The position numbers were made by a program, and so were the translations under genes. Shown piece by piece: positions 21,097 to 38,033 of a stretch of DNA of 64,000 nucleotides (within the stretch, counting starts at the first letter, position 1; the number at the start of each line of letters is the position of its first letter). The stretch lies in contig NC_014364.1 of NCBI RefSeq assembly GCF_000143985.1, positions 2,666,001-2,730,000 on the forward strand, in the 5' to 3' direction. The DNA comes from Sediminispirochaeta smaragdinae DSM 11293. Lineage in GTDB: Bacteria; Spirochaetota; Spirochaetia; DSM-16054; Sediminispirochaetaceae. The notes under the pieces are model-generated. The model was not told where the DNA came from and did no database searches. It worked only from the letters and a program-made list of their open reading frames with translations.

Positions 21097-21804
21097 TTAA
21101 ACTTTTCTTAATCTATTCAAAACGTCATGATAATATTCACGCTCCCAGTTTTCCCAATCATAGAAGTATTGATCAATTCCACCAATAGCATCTACACGTA
21201 TATGATCTCTTTCATAACGTCCACCACCAAGCATTGCATATGCGGGGTGTGTCGGCAAATCGTGTTTCTTCAGATATGCGAATATCTCCCATGTTTTCCA
21301 TAATGAAAGCGGTGCTGCCGTTTTTTTTGAAGTAATCCCATGAACAAAATACCGTATTTTTCTGGTGTTAGATTCTTGCATCCTTATCCCAGTTATGCGT
21401 CGCCCAAATTCTTCAAATAAATAATCTCCTTTTTCTTTAAAAGGCTTCGGACTATACATATTATCTGGCGTGTATTCAATCTCATATTCGTAATATCTAA
21501 TGCTAAAACGTTTTAAGAATGCATCCCTAACCGGTAGGCAATCAGGATTAAAGAATGGCTTTTCTACAATCCAGATGAACGGTACATCTATGCCGGCACA
21601 TACGCACAGATGTGCCAGAACAACTGAATCTTTACCCCACGACACAGAAACGTAACAGACTTCTTTAGCAATTCCTTGAATATCAATGATTGCCTGATCT
21701 ATTTTACTTTGTTTTAAATCAGCTGCCCGTATACCGTCCGCTTCCTCTAATTCTTTCCACAGCTTCAAATCATGCGATGTATTCCTTTCGCTTTTAATCA
21801 ACAT
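21097..21804 (-). CDS. cysH: CysH-like PP-loop ATPase of the type IV-B CRISPR-Cas locus
   Basis: 235 residues of the PAPS-reductase-like superfamily. The PP-loop SVSWGKDSVVLAHL (SxGKDS, residues 55-60) binds ATP; the C-terminal Cys motif of assimilatory PAPS reductases is absent, so sulfate reduction is unlikely. CysH-like genes are a known companion of type IV-B CRISPR-Cas loci, although their reaction is unknown. Its first 11 bases overlap the winged-helix gene, making it the last gene of the operon. AT-rich like the csf genes. Relatives in DndC-type DNA modification are an alternative reading, but the csf neighbours argue for IV-B. Confidence 0.88.
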   Translation of the reverse strand: MLIKSERNTSHDLKLWKELEEADGIRAADLKQSKIDQAIIDIQGIAKEVCYVSVSWGKDSVVLAHLCVCAGIDVPFIWIVEKPFFNPDCLPVRDAFLKRFSIRYYEYEIEYTPDNMYSPKPFKEKGDYLFEEFGRRITGIRMQESNTRKIRYFVHGITSKKTAAPLSLWKTWEIFAYLKKHDLPTHPAYAMLGGGRYERDHIRVDAIGGIDQYFYDWENWEREYYHDVLNRLRKV

Positions 21805-22030
21805 GTAAATACCCTTTTTCGTCTTCCCTGATCGGCACGACTACAGATAAATCATTTACATTGCGGGTAATTGTAGATTTGTTCACGGAAAAGACTCGTG
21901 CAAGATCAGATCGTCTCATAGGCTTTTGTTTTAATAATTCTTCAATCTTCCGACAGCGTATATATTTTGTTTCAAACATCGAATATTTGCCACGATCAGA
22001 CTGTTTTAATTCCCTAAGAAAATCTAACAT
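21794..22030 (-). CDS. Small winged-helix protein within the type IV-B operon
   Basis: 78 residues with a helix-turn-helix (KPMRRSDLARVFSVNKSTIT) followed by a two-strand wing (VVVPIREDEKGYLHVD). It overlaps the end of csf3 by 7 bases and the start of the cysH-like gene by 11, so it is translated with them. It might autoregulate the operon or be an operon-specific subunit. I do not know of this gene as a standard IV-B component. The HTH core resembles that of the XRE gene at 2604-2852. Confidence 0.7.
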   Translation of the reverse strand: MLDFLRELKQSDRGKYSMFETKYIRCRKIEELLKQKPMRRSDLARVFSVNKSTITRNVNDLSVVVPIREDEKGYLHVD

Positions 22031-22701
22031 GGTATTGCAATCTCCATAAATGTATCAGGATGCCAATATGGTGGGAATGCTCCTCCATACGAATGGCGGA
22101 AACCATACCAGTCTTTAACGGCTTCAATCGGCATTGTTTTCATCAGAACTTTTTTACCTTGGTGCATTGCAAAGATAGAATTATCTTCCTCTTGTTCTTC
22201 ATACTCCCATCCTCCGATAATTCCATAACCGACATTTCTTAAATGACCAAGCGAAGGAATTTTTTTCAACAACTTATTGATTTCTTTCCTATCGCCGCGA
22301 ACGAACCAGCATATTTTATCTATAAGCCGAATACGGAGCGGAACAAATCGTGATTTATATGGCCCTGACGATGTTAAGAGTTTTTTCCGATGTAATGGAT
22401 GCAGCATAAGAGCGGACAAATCTGTGTCAAATCGCTTTGATTGATGATCGCTCCATTCTGCTTTGACCTCTCCAAGTATCGGATCAGAGCAACAATATAC
22501 GTCGTGTCCACAAATTGTCCGCTGTGCAAGTGGTATAGGAGGCCTTTTGATTTCAGAAAGAGAAACATTACGTGTTAATTTTCGAGCATGTTTCATTCCT
22601 AACCGCATGGATAATTCGTATTCCAGAAGCGAGTCGATAAATGGCGCATCACCGCAGAGCGGTGATAACAGGTGCGCCGTAACTTTCCAGTTTTTTATCA
22701 T
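22024..22701 (-). CDS. csf3: Type IV CRISPR-associated protein Csf3 (Cas5 group)
   Basis: 225 residues. A RAMP-like start (WKVTAHLLSPLCGDAPFIDS), a middle with RPPIPLAQRTICGHDVYCCS, and the Gly-rich C-terminal segment LGHLRNVGYGIIGGWEYEE are characteristic of Csf3, the Cas5-like subunit that caps the 5' end of the guide in type IV effector complexes. It overlaps csf2 by 4 bases (ATGA) and the winged-helix gene by 7. Sequence family recognised by pattern, strengthened by csf1, cas11 and csf2 next to it. Confidence 0.88.
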   Translation of the reverse strand: MIKNWKVTAHLLSPLCGDAPFIDSLLEYELSMRLGMKHARKLTRNVSLSEIKRPPIPLAQRTICGHDVYCCSDPILGEVKAEWSDHQSKRFDTDLSALMLHPLHRKKLLTSSGPYKSRFVPLRIRLIDKICWFVRGDRKEINKLLKKIPSLGHLRNVGYGIIGGWEYEEQEEDNSIFAMHQGKKVLMKTMPIEAVKDWYGFRHSYGGAFPPYWHPDTFMEIAIPC

Positions 22702-23612
22702 AACAATTCAACCTTTGAAGGAAACGCTTTTGACAGCCATCTTTTGAATGCGTCTGTGTTTGCCTGCACGTGATCGATATATTCCTGTACCAATTCATCA
22801 GGGCCCCTTTCTGTTCCAAACCAGTCTGTCAGTCCATCAATCCAAATTGATGATTTTAATTTTCCATGGCCTATACGTGCGCTTCCACCGATGATGCCAT
22901 CGTTGTCTTGCCATAACTTAATGGCATGCAGGGCTGATCCAACCTCAAGCGGAGAGACATTGTAAAGCGTTATGTCGTGATAAAACAAAGCTCCAGGTAT
23001 AATGTTCTCTCCAGAGTAAATCATAAGGTTAGATTTTTTTTCTGCTATCTCACCGAGTATTTCGGTAGCATCTTTCATGCGAGACGCATCGCCACGGGTA
23101 TATTGATATTTTGAAACAAAATGTTGTGCGGGCTTTAAAACACCATCAGGTAATTCGTAATCGCCAGAAAGTTTTTCAATTACCTCTTGATTTTCGGCAC
23201 AGCACAGAAGTCCACGAGAGACAAATAGCGAGCCACCGACTACCTGATTTTTCAAGCTTCCTCCGAGCAGACGATACAACGGGGATACTTCTTGAAGCTC
23301 TGCAATAAGCGGAATATTATCGTTCGTTGATGACTCGGTAAGGCTTCCTCCGGTCAGCATATAATTCGCCTGATCGATGGTGAGCTTTCCGCGAAGTCCA
23401 CATTGATCGATAAGATATAGCGCTCCAGGTTGTCTTATCATTTTGTGCCGGAGAGCGTTTCCGGAAAGAACAGGGATTTCAACAACGTCGTTGTCATAAA
23501 AAACCTTTTCGCGGTTAATGATAGACTCATTCCCGGAGACTCCCATCATGTGAGTAATAGGAGAAAGCGCTTCTGAGAGAAAATGTATTTTGCATATTCC
23601 AATCTGTTTCAT
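22698..23612 (-). CDS. csf2: Type IV CRISPR-associated protein Csf2 (Cas7 group)
   Basis: About 304 residues from ATG at 23612 (GGTGGAG upstream); the cas11 stop TAA shares its last A with this ATG. The conserved IPVLSGNALRHKMIRQPGA near residue 60 and the C-terminal NDGIIGGSARIGHGKLKSS are hallmarks of Cas7-like Csf2. Multiple copies form the backbone of the type IV RNP along the RNA guide. Between them lies the variable thumb region. A longer frame to 23708 lies within cas11 and is not used. Confidence 0.9.
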   Translation of the reverse strand: MKQIGICKIHFLSEALSPITHMMGVSGNESIINREKVFYDNDVVEIPVLSGNALRHKMIRQPGALYLIDQCGLRGKLTIDQANYMLTGGSLTESSTNDNIPLIAELQEVSPLYRLLGGSLKNQVVGGSLFVSRGLLCCAENQEVIEKLSGDYELPDGVLKPAQHFVSKYQYTRGDASRMKDATEILGEIAEKKSNLMIYSGENIIPGALFYHDITLYNVSPLEVGSALHAIKLWQDNDGIIGGSARIGHGKLKSSIWIDGLTDWFGTERGPDELVQEYIDHVQANTDAFKRWLSKAFPSKVELL

Positions 23613-24040
23613 TACTTCTCCACCTTCTTTGTATTCCATAAGTTCCGAGAATAAACCAAAATAATATTGTATTTTTTCTCCATGATGTAGAGAAAGTGCT
23701 TTTTCCACTCTGTAGGCTTCGTTTCCATGCTTTCGAGAAAATAAGCCAACTCTTCACATGATGCAACTTTTCCCGGATCGGCCTTGATAAACTCAAGGAT
23801 AAGATTAACAAATTCTTCGAAATCCCCTCCACATTTTTTCACTGATGAAACGATTCCGTTCCCGATTCGCTCCCATAGAGTTTTACGATCGAAATCATCA
23901 GAGAAGAGCTTAGGTAAACTCGAACAGAACTTGATCGCTTCCTCCTTGATTACCTTCTCTTCCATTTCCGGTAGACTTTTCGACGTATCTACCAATCCCG
24001 CCAGCTTTTGACGAAATTCTTGTGCTGATAACAAAGTCAT
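23612..24040 (-). CDS. cas11: Cas11-like small subunit of the type IV-B complex
   Basis: 142 residues, mostly alpha-helical and charged (SAQEFRQKLAGLVDTSKSLP, FEEFVNLILEFIKADPGKVA, CEELAYFLESMETKPTEWKK), with no catalytic motif. Position between csf1 and csf2 and size match the small subunit found in IV-B loci, which lines the belly of the effector. Similarity between Cas11 proteins is low, so the call depends on context. The ATG at 24040 is part of an A6 run at the end of the proper csf1 coding region. Confidence 0.78.
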   Translation of the reverse strand: MTLLSAQEFRQKLAGLVDTSKSLPEMEEKVIKEEAIKFCSSLPKLFSDDFDRKTLWERIGNGIVSSVKKCGGDFEEFVNLILEFIKADPGKVASCEELAYFLESMETKPTEWKKHFLYIMEKKYNIILVYSRNLWNTKKVEK

Positions 24041-24722
24041 TTTTTGCCTCTTCCTTTCCCGGGCATAACCATGCCGCGAGCTCTCCCAATGGGGAGGAAT
24101 AGATTTTAATCCACTCAACGAGTGGGCCTTCTGAACCATACAGATCGATAATGTTTTTATAATTGATAAACTCATCAGGATTTTTTAATGCAATTTTCCC
24201 GATAGCAGCAGCGACAAGTTTTGCTTTTTGTAAATATTTTTTTAGCGTTGCTATCTCAACGCTGATTTCCTTTTCTTCAAGAAGTACGGAAAAAATGTTC
24301 TGATCATAATTAACCGGCGCGCGGAAAATAAGCTGCTTTTGTCCAGAATCGGCAAGTACGATAGAAAACGGCGGTTTCGGAGGAGATAAACATATCCGGC
24401 GCAAAACGCGCAGATGTTTTTTTGTCATGGCTAATTTTTTATTTTCAGTCAGTACCCACGAATACATTCGCGGTTGACCAGCGCGTCCTATTTTAGTTGT
24501 ACCGTCTATCTGAGTAACTTCATAAATCCCTGATAAAGATTCAACGCAGCATCCGCAAACATAGTCGGAACCAGGATATTTCACAATATCGCGATTTGTG
24601 AAAGTTTGTTTCACATATTTTTTCTTGGTGTATGTTCCATCGCATGGCATTCCGCAATAAAAGCATCGATGTTCCCCTATATTATATTTATTTGGTGCAA
24701 ATAGATATGATGCTGTTATCAT
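23910..24722 (-). CDS. csf1: Type IV CRISPR-associated protein Csf1 (Cas8-like)
   Basis: 270 residues. A zinc-finger-like N-terminus, C20-x2-C23 ... C56-x-C58-C59, is followed by PRMYSWVLTENKK and the distinctive SPPKPPFSIVLADSGQKQLI / FRAPVNYD stretch of Csf1, the large subunit of type IV complexes. The last 43 codons (after about residue 227) overlap cas11 by 131 bases and read poorly. One more A in the A6 run (24040-24045) would give a stop overlapping the cas11 ATG, so the tail is probably an artefact of a frameshift. The ATG overlaps the upstream small gene by 4 bases. Confidence 0.88.
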   Translation of the reverse strand: MITASYLFAPNKYNIGEHRCFYCGMPCDGTYTKKKYVKQTFTNRDIVKYPGSDYVCGCCVESLSGIYEVTQIDGTTKIGRAGQPRMYSWVLTENKKLAMTKKHLRVLRRICLSPPKPPFSIVLADSGQKQLIFRAPVNYDQNIFSVLLEEKEISVEIATLKKYLQKAKLVAAAIGKIALKNPDEFINYKNIIDLYGSEGPLVEWIKIYSSPLGELAAWLCPGKEEAKNDFVISTRISSKAGGIGRYVEKSTGNGREGNQGGSDQVLFEFT

Positions 24723-34486: not shown

Positions 34487-34517
34487 TGGTCCTCCTTCAA
34501 TTTTTGATTTGTAGGAT

Positions 34518-34587
34518 TGCAGGACTGGGATTTGAACCCAGGGCGACGGGGATATGAGCCCCGCATGTTCCCACTACACCATCCTGC
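34518..34587 (-). tRNA. Phage tRNA with CAT anticodon (Met, or Ile2 if modified)
   Basis: Acceptor GCAGGAT pairs with GTCCTGC, the anticodon stem CGGGG/CCCCG encloses loop CTCATAT (anticodon CAT), and T-arm CTGGG-TTCAAAT-CCCAG is canonical. The D-stem is short. Discriminator A; CCA is not encoded. 70 bases long. Phage tRNAs with CAT may decode AUG or, with lysidine, AUA. It sits upstream of the early operon. Confidence 0.9.
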
Positions 34588-34597
34588 TTTGTGTCAT

Positions 34598-34810
34598 TTA
34601 CTCGAATGGTTTTATATCGAGTTGTGTCTTTCCTGATTGGATGGTTTCGTATCGGTCAAGTTCCTTGATGATGAGCTTGCGAACCCATGTCGCACGACCT
34701 CTTCCTGATGTTTCTTTTAATGGGCCATTATCGATTCTGTTGATTTCATTCTCAGTTAGAACGACTTTCACAGCTGGAGGGCTTTTATGTTCCAATTTTG
34801 CTCTATTCAT
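34598..34810 (-). CDS. Small regulator of immunity module 1 (Cro/RHH-like position)
   Basis: 70 residues from ATG at 34810, six bases behind a TATTAT -10, so the message is probably leaderless. It has a basic strand-helix-helix layout (AVKVVLTENEINRIDNGPLK, RATWVRKLIIKELDRYETIQ) that could be ribbon-helix-helix. It ends IQSGKTQLDIKPFE; nearly the same words end the partner in module 2. Divergent from repressor 1, it holds the place of a Cro or of the first lytic gene. Confidence 0.65.
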   Translation of the reverse strand: MNRAKLEHKSPPAVKVVLTENEINRIDNGPLKETSGRGRATWVRKLIIKELDRYETIQSGKTQLDIKPFE

Positions 34811-34816
34811 ACACTC

Positions 34817-34845
34817 ATAATAGAGCAATAAAAGAACAATATCAA
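34817..34845 (-). promoter_or_regulatory. Promoter of the minus-strand gene of module 1, leaderless
   Basis: TTGATA (34845-34840), 17 bases, TATTAT (34822-34817), then six bases to the ATG at 34810. Copies of TAATAGAGYA (34819-34828, inverted at 34864-34873 and direct at 34882-34891) surround it and are candidate operators. Confidence 0.7.
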
Positions 34846-34890
34846 GTGTTTTTTGTGACATTTTGCTCTATTTATTGCCGATAATAGAGT

Positions 34891-35232
34891 ATGGATTTCT
34901 GGGAACGGTTAAAGACCTTAATCAAAGAACAAAAGACAACTCAAGAATGGGTTGCAAATAAAACCGGCGTGAGTTTTGGAACTTTTCGAAAGTGGATGTC
35001 AAGAAAAACAATGCCCAATGCGGACCAAGCCGTAGAAATAGCTGATGTTCTTGATACTACCGTAGAATACCTGGTAAAAGGTAAGTCTTCAGATACCTGG
35101 CAGCCTCCGAGACGTTACGCCGATATTGTAAAACTGCTCGAAGAGCTTGACGACTCGGAACTTGAGGCCGTAAAAGTCCTGGCCGAGGGGTACGCCTCCA
35201 GGAAGCGAAACAAACCCCAGAAAGAAACGTGA
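34891..35232 (+). CDS. CI-like repressor, module 1
   Basis: 113 residues with an XRE helix-turn-helix in the first 60 (QKTTQEWVANKTGVSFGTFR, KWMSRKTMPNADQAVEIADV), then LDTTVEYLVKGK and a short helical dimerisation tail (YADIVKLLEELDDSELEAVK). The lack of a LexA/S24 peptidase domain means it is not cleaved in the SOS response by the usual route. A -10-like GATAAT ends five bases before the ATG, so its mRNA is probably leaderless. It shares the pattern DTTVEYLVxGK and WQPPRRYADIV with repressor 2 at 36096. Confidence 0.85.
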   Translation: MDFWERLKTLIKEQKTTQEWVANKTGVSFGTFRKWMSRKTMPNADQAVEIADVLDTTVEYLVKGKSSDTWQPPRRYADIVKLLEELDDSELEAVKVLAEGYASRKRNKPQKET

Positions 35233-35371
35233 AGCCAGGTAGCTGAAAAACCCTTCTCTAATCTGTCAAAGATCACCGATCTGAGGTTCCGGCCGGGTAG
35301 GCCAAAACGTCACTCAACCCCTCGTAGTCGAACGCAAGATTTCTTTCGCGGTAGCGCCCAGGCCACAAGAT
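35233..35371. other. Intergenic, no feature identified
   Basis: About 140 bases between repressor 1 and the convergent excisionase-like gene. No hairpin with a T-run was found, and no open frame. Confidence 0.4.
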
Positions 35372-35794
35372 TCAATGCCGACAAATATGGCCCTCAATAA
35401 CAGACACAAGATAATCGGGAAGAGTTCCAGCCGAATGCTGGGCCATGAGCTCAGCAAGCACACCGTCGCCTACATCCGGACACGTTAACAATGCTTCCAG
35501 GTACAGCGCCCGCGTCTCCGATGTGATCTCAAGCCACTCCTCGATCTGCTCTTCTGTCCACATTCGCTTGCTACCCTCAGTGTGGTTAGAAAAACCAGCC
35601 ATAGGCTGCATGTGACGAACAGAGGCAATGGTCTTGTAGCTAACTCCTTTCAGCGCACTTGCCGCCTTCATGTCATACAACCGTCTTCGATTGTTAATTG
35701 TGTTTGCGGTAATATCTCCGAGCTCCTCTATGGCAGTAGCTAATGATCTGAATGCGGATTGGATTCTTTCGGTAATAACTTCATTCTCTTTCAT
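35372..35794 (-). CDS. HTH (excisionase/MerR-like) protein of module 2
   Basis: 140 residues. A helical N-terminus (TERIQSAFRSLATAIEELGD) is followed by a winged-helix-type segment YDMKAASALKGVSYKTIASV and SKRMWTEEQIEEWLEIT, as in HTH_17 excisionases. It begins one base after the small regulator 35796-36014, from the same leaderless promoter. It may be the directionality factor for the integrase or a lytic regulator. Confidence 0.65.
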   Translation of the reverse strand: MKENEVITERIQSAFRSLATAIEELGDITANTINNRRRLYDMKAASALKGVSYKTIASVRHMQPMAGFSNHTEGSKRMWTEEQIEEWLEITSETRALYLEALLTCPDVGDGVLAELMAQHSAGTLPDYLVSVIEGHICRH

Positions 35795-35795
35795 G

Positions 35796-36014
35796 CTACT
35801 CCCCTACTTTCTCGAATGGCTTTGAGTCGAGTTGCGTTTTGCCGGACTGAATGGCTTCCCATTCCTTTACGCGGTTCATCATCTCTACTTTTAGATAGGG
35901 CCCAGCCTTCCGGCCAGTAGATTCGAGGAAGCTAACAAATCTGGCTCTCTCATCTTCGCTGAATGGAATGGATACCTTATAACGACTATCTTGTTGTCGT
36001 TTAGCAACTTTCAT
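35796..36014 (-). CDS. Small regulator of immunity module 2
   Basis: 72 residues: basic strand (RYKVSIPFSEDERARFVSFL) then helices (GPYLKVEMMNRVKEWEAIQS) and the ending IQSGKTQLDSKPFEKVGE, shared with the module 1 partner. Ribbon-helix-helix is the likely fold. The -10 TAATAT ends six bases before the ATG at 36014, so the message is leaderless. Divergent from repressor 2. Confidence 0.68.
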   Translation of the reverse strand: MKVAKRQQDSRYKVSIPFSEDERARFVSFLESTGRKAGPYLKVEMMNRVKEWEAIQSGKTQLDSKPFEKVGE

Positions 36015-36020
36015 AACTGT

Positions 36021-36049
36021 ATATTATGGTCGATCAACAACTTTGTCAA
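36021..36049 (-). promoter_or_regulatory. Promoter of module 2 minus-strand genes, leaderless
   Basis: TTGACA (36049-36044), a 17-base spacer and TAATAT (36026-36021), followed after six bases by the ATG at 36014. TTGTCAA (36043-36049) is mirrored by TTGACAA (36066-36072), an inverted repeat that may be the operator between the divergent genes. Confidence 0.78.
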
Positions 36050-36095
36050 GAAAAATATGCGTCATTTGACAACATTTTTAGACGATAATAGGTGT

Positions 36096-36443
36096 ATGGA
36101 ATTTTGGGATATAGTCAAAAAAGAAATAAAGCGGCAAAACACTACTCAAGAATGGGTTTCTAATCACTCGAATATTAGCTTTGAAACATTTCGAGGATGG
36201 ATAGCAAGAAAACGATTACCTCGAGTTGATGATGGGGTAAAAATTGCCCAATCATTGGATACTACCGTAGAATACCTGGTAACAGGAAAGAACCCCGACA
36301 ACTGGCAACCTCCGAGACGCTATGCTGATATCGTTGCAGCCTTAGAAGTGCTTGATGATAAAGACATCGAGACGGTTAAAACATTAGCGGTTAGCCTGGC
36401 AGAGAGAACAAACATTGAATATCGCAAAAAGAGAGACGCTTAA
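36096..36443 (+). CDS. CI-like repressor, module 2
   Basis: 115 residues from ATG at 36096, paralogous to the repressor at 34891: EFWDIVKKEIKRQNTTQEWV, an HTH (SFETFRGWIARKRLPRVDDG), LDTTVEYLVTGK and PPRRYADIVAALEVLDDKDI. A -10-like GATAAT (36084-36089) ends six bases before the ATG, so this mRNA also lacks a leader. An upstream in-frame ATG at 35991 lies beyond the operator and is rejected. Lysogeny repressor; divergence from module 1 suggests a different operator specificity. Confidence 0.85.
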   Translation: MEFWDIVKKEIKRQNTTQEWVSNHSNISFETFRGWIARKRLPRVDDGVKIAQSLDTTVEYLVTGKNPDNWQPPRRYADIVAALEVLDDKDIETVKTLAVSLAERTNIEYRKKRDA

Positions 36444-36565: not shown

Positions 36566-37069
36566 ATGAGAAAGAAGTATGCAATACTAAGTGAAGACGA
36601 GCTACACGAAGATATCAAAATCATACCACCGAATGATGACAAGATTATCGAAATAGCCGATAGAGATGGTAATACGTATTCAGTCAACATGAAAGAGCTT
36701 TCATGTACCTGTGAAGATTGGGAAACTGATAGACATAATTTCTGCATCGGCGATCCGAGAAGATGCTGTTTTCATATCAAGAAAGCGTTTAGAAGAAATA
36801 ATGCTATAGAAGAGCAAAAACCTGTCATAAAGGCTATTTTAAACGAATATCACACTGTAAGACTGAATATGCTATTCGGAATGCTTGGAAGCCAACCGGT
36901 AGCAATCTTCTATGATGATGAATCACCATGGATGGATGTATTCACAGAAATTGATCAAAACAAACAAATTGGTAGATCTGGATTTAACTATAAAGAAAAA
37001 CGCTGGGCATATAACGAAGAGCCTGTCAATGGCGATAAAATAGCTTCGTTTATTGTAAATAGTATATAA
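36566..37069 (+). CDS. SWIM-type zinc finger protein, lysogenic cargo
   Basis: 167 residues. The middle segment MKELSCTCEDWETDRHNFC followed by CCFHIKKAF fits a SWIM zinc finger (CxC ... CxH). The C-terminal half (LNMLFGMLGSQPVAIFYDDE, SGFNYKEKRWAYNEEPVNGD) is a small alpha-beta part I do not recognise. It lies on the + strand with the repressors, away from the lytic operons, so it is probably made in the lysogen. AT-rich. A host-benefit or exclusion gene is an inference from position. Confidence 0.65.
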   Translation: MRKKYAILSEDELHEDIKIIPPNDDKIIEIADRDGNTYSVNMKELSCTCEDWETDRHNFCIGDPRRCCFHIKKAFRRNNAIEEQKPVIKAILNEYHTVRLNMLFGMLGSQPVAIFYDDESPWMDVFTEIDQNKQIGRSGFNYKEKRWAYNEEPVNGDKIASFIVNSI

Positions 37070-37116
37070 TTCCAAACTCTTCAAGTAGAGGCTATTTAAA
37101 CATCAGGAGGACATAA

Positions 37117-37407
37117 ATGAGTTTTGTTGTTTTTATCATCTGGGTTGTGCTTGCTTTTCTTTTGGCTTCGAGTGCTAAAAGCAAAGGACGTTCTTACGCA
37201 GGGTTTCTGGTATTAGGGTTGATCCTATCGCCAGTTATCGGATTCATTATTTTGCTTGTGATGGGAGAAAATAAAGACATTGTGCAGCAGCAAAATATAG
37301 AATCCGGTATTACAAAAAAATGCCCTTATTGTGCAAATGAAATTAAGAAAGAAGCCATTGTCTGCCAATATTGCGGGAGAGACCTCCCCCAAAAACCGGA
37401 AGAATAA
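37117..37407 (+). CDS. Membrane protein with C-terminal zinc ribbon
   Basis: 96 residues: two TM segments ([38 protein letters not shown]) and a cytoplasmic zinc ribbon [27 protein letters not shown] precedes the ATG. Proteins of this build are found in phages and genomes as small membrane regulators; a role in superinfection exclusion fits its place but is not shown. Confidence 0.7.
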
Positions 37408-37409
37408 TC

Positions 37410-37772
37410 ATGAGCGATATAGATAATAATGCAAATGATAAAAAAGCCAACAAGTCTAAAAAAGTAACACTTGTTTTGATCCTAATAATCATTGTTGCAA
37501 TTCCGATCTTTACCGGTTTTATAGTAATTCAGCCAGTTGGGGCATTGCCTGACGGTATCACAATATGGTACTTCCGCGCTGGTCTAAACTTACCCTTTAT
37601 CACCTCGCCAGACGGATTTTCTTTGAAACAGACTGGCCAATTGTCTTTAATGAGTAGAATGGTATCTATGTCAGCAATAACAACGGCGATTAAAGATAGG
37701 ATTATTATTCGTTTGCCATATAGTAGAACTCTATACAAGATTTCAACAGGCGGGCAGGAGTTTGGCCAATAA
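37410..37772 (+). CDS. Single-pass membrane protein, lysogenic cargo
   Basis: 120 residues from ATG at 37410, three bases after the preceding gene. A lysine-rich cytoplasmic start (DKKANKSKKV), one TM segment (LVLILIIIVAIPIFTGFIVI) and an outside domain of 85 residues with no known motif. It forms a pair with the zinc-ribbon membrane protein. Confidence 0.6.
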   Translation: MSDIDNNANDKKANKSKKVTLVLILIIIVAIPIFTGFIVIQPVGALPDGITIWYFRAGLNLPFITSPDGFSLKQTGQLSLMSRMVSMSAITTAIKDRIIIRLPYSRTLYKISTGGQEFGQ

Positions 37773-37990
37773 AGGGAAAATAGTTCGAAACCTTAATTTC
37801 AACGATAGCGGGGAATTCTATCCCCATTCCCCGCTACAGCCTTTTATACTGTGTACAAAATAATATCAAAAACACCTTGTGTGCACGATATTGTGTATTA
37901 AATGTTAGATTTTATAGAAATTATATCCTATATACACCATATATAGCGTATATTTAGCTATACAGAACTACAAAAACCACTATAGACGGA
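37773..37990 (+). other. AT-rich attachment arm region with hairpin
   Basis: A ten-pair hairpin AGCGGGGAAT/ATTCCCCGCT (about 37812-37840) follows the last cargo gene; no clear T-run follows it. The rest is AT-rich and holds the right-hand arm-type repeat GTGTGCACGATATTGTGTAT (37879-37898), similar to 202-220. No gene seen. Confidence 0.55.
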
Positions 37991-38033
37991 CTTACAAGCA
38001 GGATGTCGGCGGTTCAAGTCCGTCATCGCCCAC
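37991..38033 (+). other. attR, displaced 3' half of the host tRNA-Val
   Basis: It repeats CTTACAAGCAGGA and CATCGCCCAC of the tRNA at the left end. Between these blocks it has the canonical T arm GGCGG-TTCAAGT-CCGTC. Joined to the 5' half at 60-90 this gives a normal tRNA-Val(UAC), so this is inferred to be the original host half cut off by integration. Confidence 0.85.

Follow-up and report, generated by a model that had tools for sequence, protein, structure and literature searches.

A putative two-module immunity region of exchangeable CI/RHH cassettes in a prophage of Sediminispirochaeta smaragdinae

Control of the antirepressor by the second immunity locus of phage P22 uses ribbon-helix-helix (RHH) proteins, and the two loci of this phage (immC with c2; immI with mnt, arc and ant) combine a CI-like repressor with RHH-type regulators. 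Immunity that depends on several loci is known from a number of phages: it is bipartite in P22, in which the second locus controls the antirepressor and is unrelated to the first, and tripartite in phages P1, P7 and N15, in which several repressor loci form a multilayer circuit (PMC6550527). The loci of phages P1, P7 and N15 are separate and of different kinds. The usual view is one immunity type per phage, with extra loci of a different kind. In lambda (cI/cro), in lambdoid heteroimmunity and in PY54, a repressor and a lytic regulator are divergent and exchangeable in specificity; these phages have one module each, their Cro is an HTH protein, and CI of lambda has a self-cleaving C-terminal domain. 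Short phage repressors are also found in the RstR family (NF041951).

Here, we describe prophage W of the salt-loving spirochaete Spirochaeta (now Sediminispirochaeta) smaragdinae, the genome of which is published (PMC3035371). The window, i.e., the whole stretch of 64,000 nucleotides that was analysed, corresponds to bases 2,666,001 to 2,730,000 of the 4,653,970-bp chromosome. W carries an inner module A and an outer module B, each with a short CI-like repressor opposite a small, probable RHH protein. As in P22, there are two loci, with CI-like repressors and, in W probably, RHH-type regulators; in contrast to P22, the loci of W are complete modules of the CI/RHH kind that are related to each other and lie in tandem, and an antirepressor-like gene was not recognised among the reading frames of 34 to 38 kb. 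As in phages P1, P7 and N15, there are several repressor loci, but those of W are tandem modules of one family. Compared to lambda and PY54, the divergent layout is the same, whereas W has two modules and its putative lytic regulators are probably RHH-like. In the open-access literature, we found no tandem, homologous and differently specific CI/RHH immunity modules. Multi-locus immunity is already known, and the tandem homologous CI/RHH arrangement appears to be a new variant of it.

Prophage W and the proteins of its two modules

W extends from attL (~60–133), within a tRNA-Val gene, to attR (~37990–38033), a tRNA-Val 3' remnant. It has an integrase (253–1515), and phage-family matches include portal, terminase, major head protein, helicase and RecT-like genes. 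Based on the integrase, portal, terminase, head and RecT genes, W looks like a complete phage. Two adjacent prophages that had lost one att site between them are unlikely because both modules are enclosed by the tRNA-Val att repeats and occur in the same order in L010, a separate viral contig (IMGVR 3300035548_000648). W also carries Type IV-like CRISPR effector genes inside the prophage (21097–24722), i.e., Csf1/Cas8-like (23910–24722), Csf2/Cas7-like (22698–23615) and Csf3/Cas5-like (22024–22701) genes beside a PAPS-reductase (CysH-like) gene (21097–21804). PADLOC matches of the Csf-like genes are strong, their NCBIfam matches are below cut-off, and the stretch 21097–24722 has no DNA match in the sister prophages P1, P2 and P3 described below. 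From the outer or only repressor to the end of the prophage, there appears to be a variable cargo site (W 36566–37772; L012:5800–8705; L011:4850–7724; L010:8318–11402). At this site, W encodes small membrane proteins and zinc-ribbon proteins, prophage P1 has a HerA/mads-like gene, prophage P2 has defence-like genes (NsnA/PD-T4-2-like), and L010 has a methylase and an ATPase weakly similar to PD-Lambda-5.

The sequence-only reading had recognised two divergent modules with repressors starting at 34891 and 36096 and small proteins starting at 34810 and 36014, and had taken the repressors to be paralogues. The modules are present as described, and the two repressors are 55% identical: rep-A (34891–35232, + strand, 113 aa) has a type A HTH and a class I C-terminus, and rep-B (36096–36443, + strand, 115 aa) a type B HTH and a class II C-terminus. 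Both belong to the CI/HTH_3 type, with an N-terminal HTH domain above the Pfam cut-off (P0001, HTH_3 30.3 bits with a cut-off of 23 and Phage_CI_repr 26.2 with a cut-off of 22; P0002, Phage_CI_repr 23.7 bits with a cut-off of 22), and a search of the PDB with the repressor profile finds P22 C2. The S24 peptidase domain is absent from both short proteins in Pfam searches, and they are, therefore, not self-cleaving repressors like CI of lambda. The RstR-family profile NF041951 of NCBIfam matches rep-A with 53.8 bits over positions 1–108 of 108 and rep-B with 36.5 bits over nearly the whole length. Thus, rep-A and rep-B resemble RstR-family repressors in size and extent of match; they score under the curated cut-off of 80 bits and are not counted as members. 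Decay of one module, which had been put forward as a finding that would speak against two working switches, is not seen: in both modules the frames are intact and dN/dS is low (0.02–0.06 for the HTHs, 0.12–0.13 for the RHHs).

RHH-A (34598–34810, − strand, 70 aa) is 84% identical to its copy in prophage P2, with a dN/dS of 0.13, and is ~37% identical to RHH-B (35796–36014, − strand, 72 aa). The two proteins have a common tail, IQSGKTQLDxKPFE (34598–34651 and 35796–35850), which is constant while the N-terminal parts vary; this tail may serve as an arm for recombination or as a surface for contacts. The small proteins had no Pfam match, and Foldseek returned nothing at E≤0.001. The structure model has two helices (20–33 and 37–56; pLDDT ~90), and the profile search gave a weak match (E=0.027) to HP0222, which we take to be an RHH protein. 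On the basis of this two-helix model and weak match, the RHH fold is probable rather than proven.

Directly behind the RHH gene of the inner module is a phage-borne tRNA-Met (CAT) gene (34517–34588, − strand), which is conserved at this position in L010 and apparently truncated in prophage P3; early genes up to RecT and helicase follow. The first gene behind RHH-B encodes P0005 (35372–35794, − strand, 140 aa), which has a 70% identical homologue in L010, and a small winged-helix/Xis-like gene likewise lies behind the only RHH gene in prophages P1 and P2. By position and weak similarity to an excisionase family (phrog_66, E=0.027), P0005 is probably a winged-helix, Xis-like protein; it had no Pfam or NCBIfam match above cut-off. 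Its structure model is poor (pLDDT 59), and a structural assignment was dropped for this reason.

Promoter geometry and candidate operators

As the sequence-only reading had noted, a −10 box ends 5 or 6 nt before the ATG of all four genes (5, 6, 6 and 6 nt), and this geometry is kept in relatives. The promoters of RHH-A (TTGATA-17-TATTAT; 34817–34845, − strand) and RHH-B (TTGACA-17-TAATAT; 36021–36049, − strand) both end 6 nt before the ATG. The −10 box of rep-A (GATAAT; 34880–34885, + strand) lies within a conserved CGATAAT and ends 5 nt before the ATG, and that of rep-B (GATAAT; 36084–36089, + strand) ends 6 nt before the ATG and has no good −35 box. Two lines of evidence argue that this geometry is not due to chance. 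First, the −10 box of the RHH promoter ends 4–8 nt before the ATG in 10 of 11 related modules vs. ~12% in shuffled upstream sequence; TTGACA-like −35 boxes with spacers of 15–17 nt are also present in 10 of the 11, in which the −10 box ends 6–8 nt before the ATG, the exception being module C of prophage P3, which has a normal Shine-Dalgarno-like leader. Second, in all nine modules of ~80 bp, the −35 box starts 29–30 nt from the RHH ATG and CGAT is found 12–13 nt before the repressor ATG. Taken alone, the repressor −10 box is weaker evidence, with the best single hexamer 4–8 nt before the ATG in 6/11 modules compared to ~11% expected. No good −35 box was found for the repressor promoters in the modules compared, as expected for weak PRM-type promoters. 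Altogether, all four messages are predicted to be leaderless or nearly so and would be translated as such. Leaderless cI and cro mRNAs have already been mapped in PY54 (PMC4488713); the geometry alone is, therefore, not new.

Of the operator words proposed previously, the A word TGCTCTATT/AATAGAGCA stands and occurs in two pairs, while the B word TTGTCAA does not. The first candidate A operator, TGCTCTATT-N11-AATAGAGCA (34799–34827), covers the start and −10 box of RHH-A, and the second, TGCTCTATT-N10-AATAGAGTA (34864–34891), covers the rep-A promoter. The window contains these two word pairs and none further, and 20 shuffled windows contain none. The half-sites of a pair are separated by roughly two turns of the helix, which is unusual for a CI dimer and counts against the two-switch model proposed below. 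TTGTCAA (36044–36050) was rejected as a B operator: on the − strand it reads TTGACA, the −35 box of the RHH-B promoter, and it is present at the same spot in nearly every module, whether B-type, of another type or even the A-type module of prophage P2. The better candidate for B is the perfect palindrome GTCATTTGAC (36061–36070), which is unchanged in prophage P1 and for which inspection suggests a degenerate partner, the imperfect palindrome GTCGATCAAC (36029–36038). Across the modules, operator words correlate with HTH type.

Cassette exchange and the source of the two specificities

The same chromosome contains three further related prophages, P1, P2 and P3, one of which matches an IMG/VR record at 100% identity. 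P1 has one B-type and P2 one A-type module. The N-terminal HTH of rep-A is 98% identical to that of P2 and the HTH of rep-B 97% identical to that of P1, compared to 38–60% for all other pairs. The operators likewise agree, those of A with P2 and those of B with P1. Because of these matches, A and B are not copies of each other. Duplication of one module in place, as implied when the modules were first described as duplicated, is thus rejected, each being far closer to a module of another prophage than to its neighbour; A and B come from a shared pool. The earlier suggestions that the two modules differ in specificity and could provide immunity to two phage types gain strength from the occurrence of A in P2 and of B in P1.

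L010 has the order tRNA-Met, RHH1/rep1, a P0005 homologue, two small genes and RHH2/rep2, and its flanking early genes are ~90–100% identical to those of W. Along the inner module, identity falls from 97–100% to 40–58% (34681–35040) and returns to 97%, and the low-identity stretch runs from the middle of the RHH gene through the end of the repressor HTH. In L010, the outer cassette is replaced as well as the inner. By this comparison, cassettes are exchanged between conserved arms at both modules, and the exchangeable unit would comprise the N-terminal part of the RHH protein, the operators and the repressor HTH, in total ~400 bp. Exchange at both modules and dN/dS values of 0.02–0.13 argue for two functioning immunity determinants.

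Outside the exchanged part, the C-terminus of the inner repressor is 98% identical between W and L010, and that of rep-B' of P3 is 63% identical to these. The C-termini of outer and single repressors are 65–86% alike, and identity between the classes is 41–59%. In 3/3 tandem cases the partner repressors differ in C-terminal class, which, given the few cases, is only suggestive of insulation between partners. A strict assignment of C-terminal class by position did not hold, the single-module relative L073 having a class-I-like tail.

Clear tandem cases in the close family are three only (W, P3 and L010), of which two come from one chromosome. In the stretch examined, P1, P2, L073, L133 and L134 have a single module and, therefore, two modules are not required. 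L130, a Treponema-like prophage with homologues of the early genes of W, has a short inner repressor and, behind an xis-like gene, a longer outer repressor that is LexA-like as judged by eye. Other spirochaete prophages or contigs (L129, L130, L052, L074 and L075) also have two or three repressors of the CI type inside a few kb, and in another spirochaete chromosome a PIN-domain-like toxin-antitoxin pair lies between two near-identical short repressors (L131:3137–4728).

P3 has the order RHH-B'/rep-B', lipoprotein-like gene, C-terminal fragment of rep-A, recurring segment, xis-like gene, RHH-C/rep-C and integrase; B' is a third module type and C, beside the integrase, a fourth and distant one. 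The recurring segment (35247–35370 in W) joins the inner and outer modules and is also found in P1, P2 and P3, where it lies toward the early operon from the Xis-like or RHH gene. As a structured RNA or terminator it was rejected (folding z 0.40 and −0.24, i.e., no excess; no good terminator). The rep-A leftover between the modules of P3, the two copies of the segment in this prophage and the existence of single-module relatives would fit a scenario of passive stacking, in which recombination between related phages brought two immunity regions side by side and W tolerates one, probably B, as a passenger with no remaining role in its life cycle. Such a passenger is not expected to be intact with low dN/dS, as both modules are, nor does stacking readily account for L010, which keeps the order though both cassettes are replaced by other complete ones; we consider passive stacking unlikely. 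Alternatively, rep-B could be immunity cargo, retained against competing B-type phages and not for the life cycle of W itself. The match of its HTH and operator to another prophage, P1, and the defence-like genes that P2 and L010 carry in the cargo stretch leading to attR are in line with this idea, yet a pure decoy would need neither the RHH gene, nor the operators, nor the early-type gene for P0005 that module B keeps, and we regard immunity cargo as a somewhat poorer explanation still.

Two proposed switches in tandem and their meaning

Together, the two intact modules, the matching specificities elsewhere, the cassette exchange, the conserved tandem order and the promoter geometry lead us to lean towards a model whereby a single temperate phage has, in A and B, an immunity region of two insulated modules in tandem, with exchangeable specificity cassettes. 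In this model, each module would be a complete lysogeny switch, in which a CI-like repressor acts on its own operators opposite an RHH-type, Cro-like protein. Inner module A would front the replication/recombination operon and outer module B the small, probably Xis-like winged-helix gene, the product of which we infer to act in excision; this division of labour is suggested by gene order. Because the paired repressors differ in HTH, operators and C-terminal domains, A and B would act independently, and full induction would require relief of both repressors. With both repressors acting in trans, a W lysogen would be immune to A-type as well as B-type phages.

A layered switch, which the sequence-only reading had also raised, is possible from gene order and convergent transcription, in that the leftward transcript of module B would head toward the 3' end of rep-A; however, a hierarchy in which the derepressed B transcript runs antisense through rep-A, so that the outer module controls the inner, is in our view improbable, given that the scan that found no convincing terminator in the ~140-bp gap between the tail-to-tail genes for rep-A and P0005, present in W and L010, is blind to Rho-dependent and unusual terminators.

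Returning to two independent switches, we tentatively extend the model, at a confidence well short of an even chance, to a two-key lysogeny lock in this family of spirochaete phages. Here, two adjacent, mutually insulated switches, serving replication and excision, respectively, would carry hot-swappable cassettes and, thus, two independently changing immunity types, and sister prophages with matching types would be held or released together with W. If the tandem reading is correct, tandem homologous switches would widen the range of immunity and guard against accidental induction, and rep-A and rep-B would be a natural pair of repressors without cross-talk. Because the chromosome of S. smaragdinae contains four related prophages with two specificities common among them, polyimmunity is directly testable in this organism. 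A layout that is kept while the specificities are swapped suggests one virus that can guard itself twice and, at the same time, block two kinds of rival virus.
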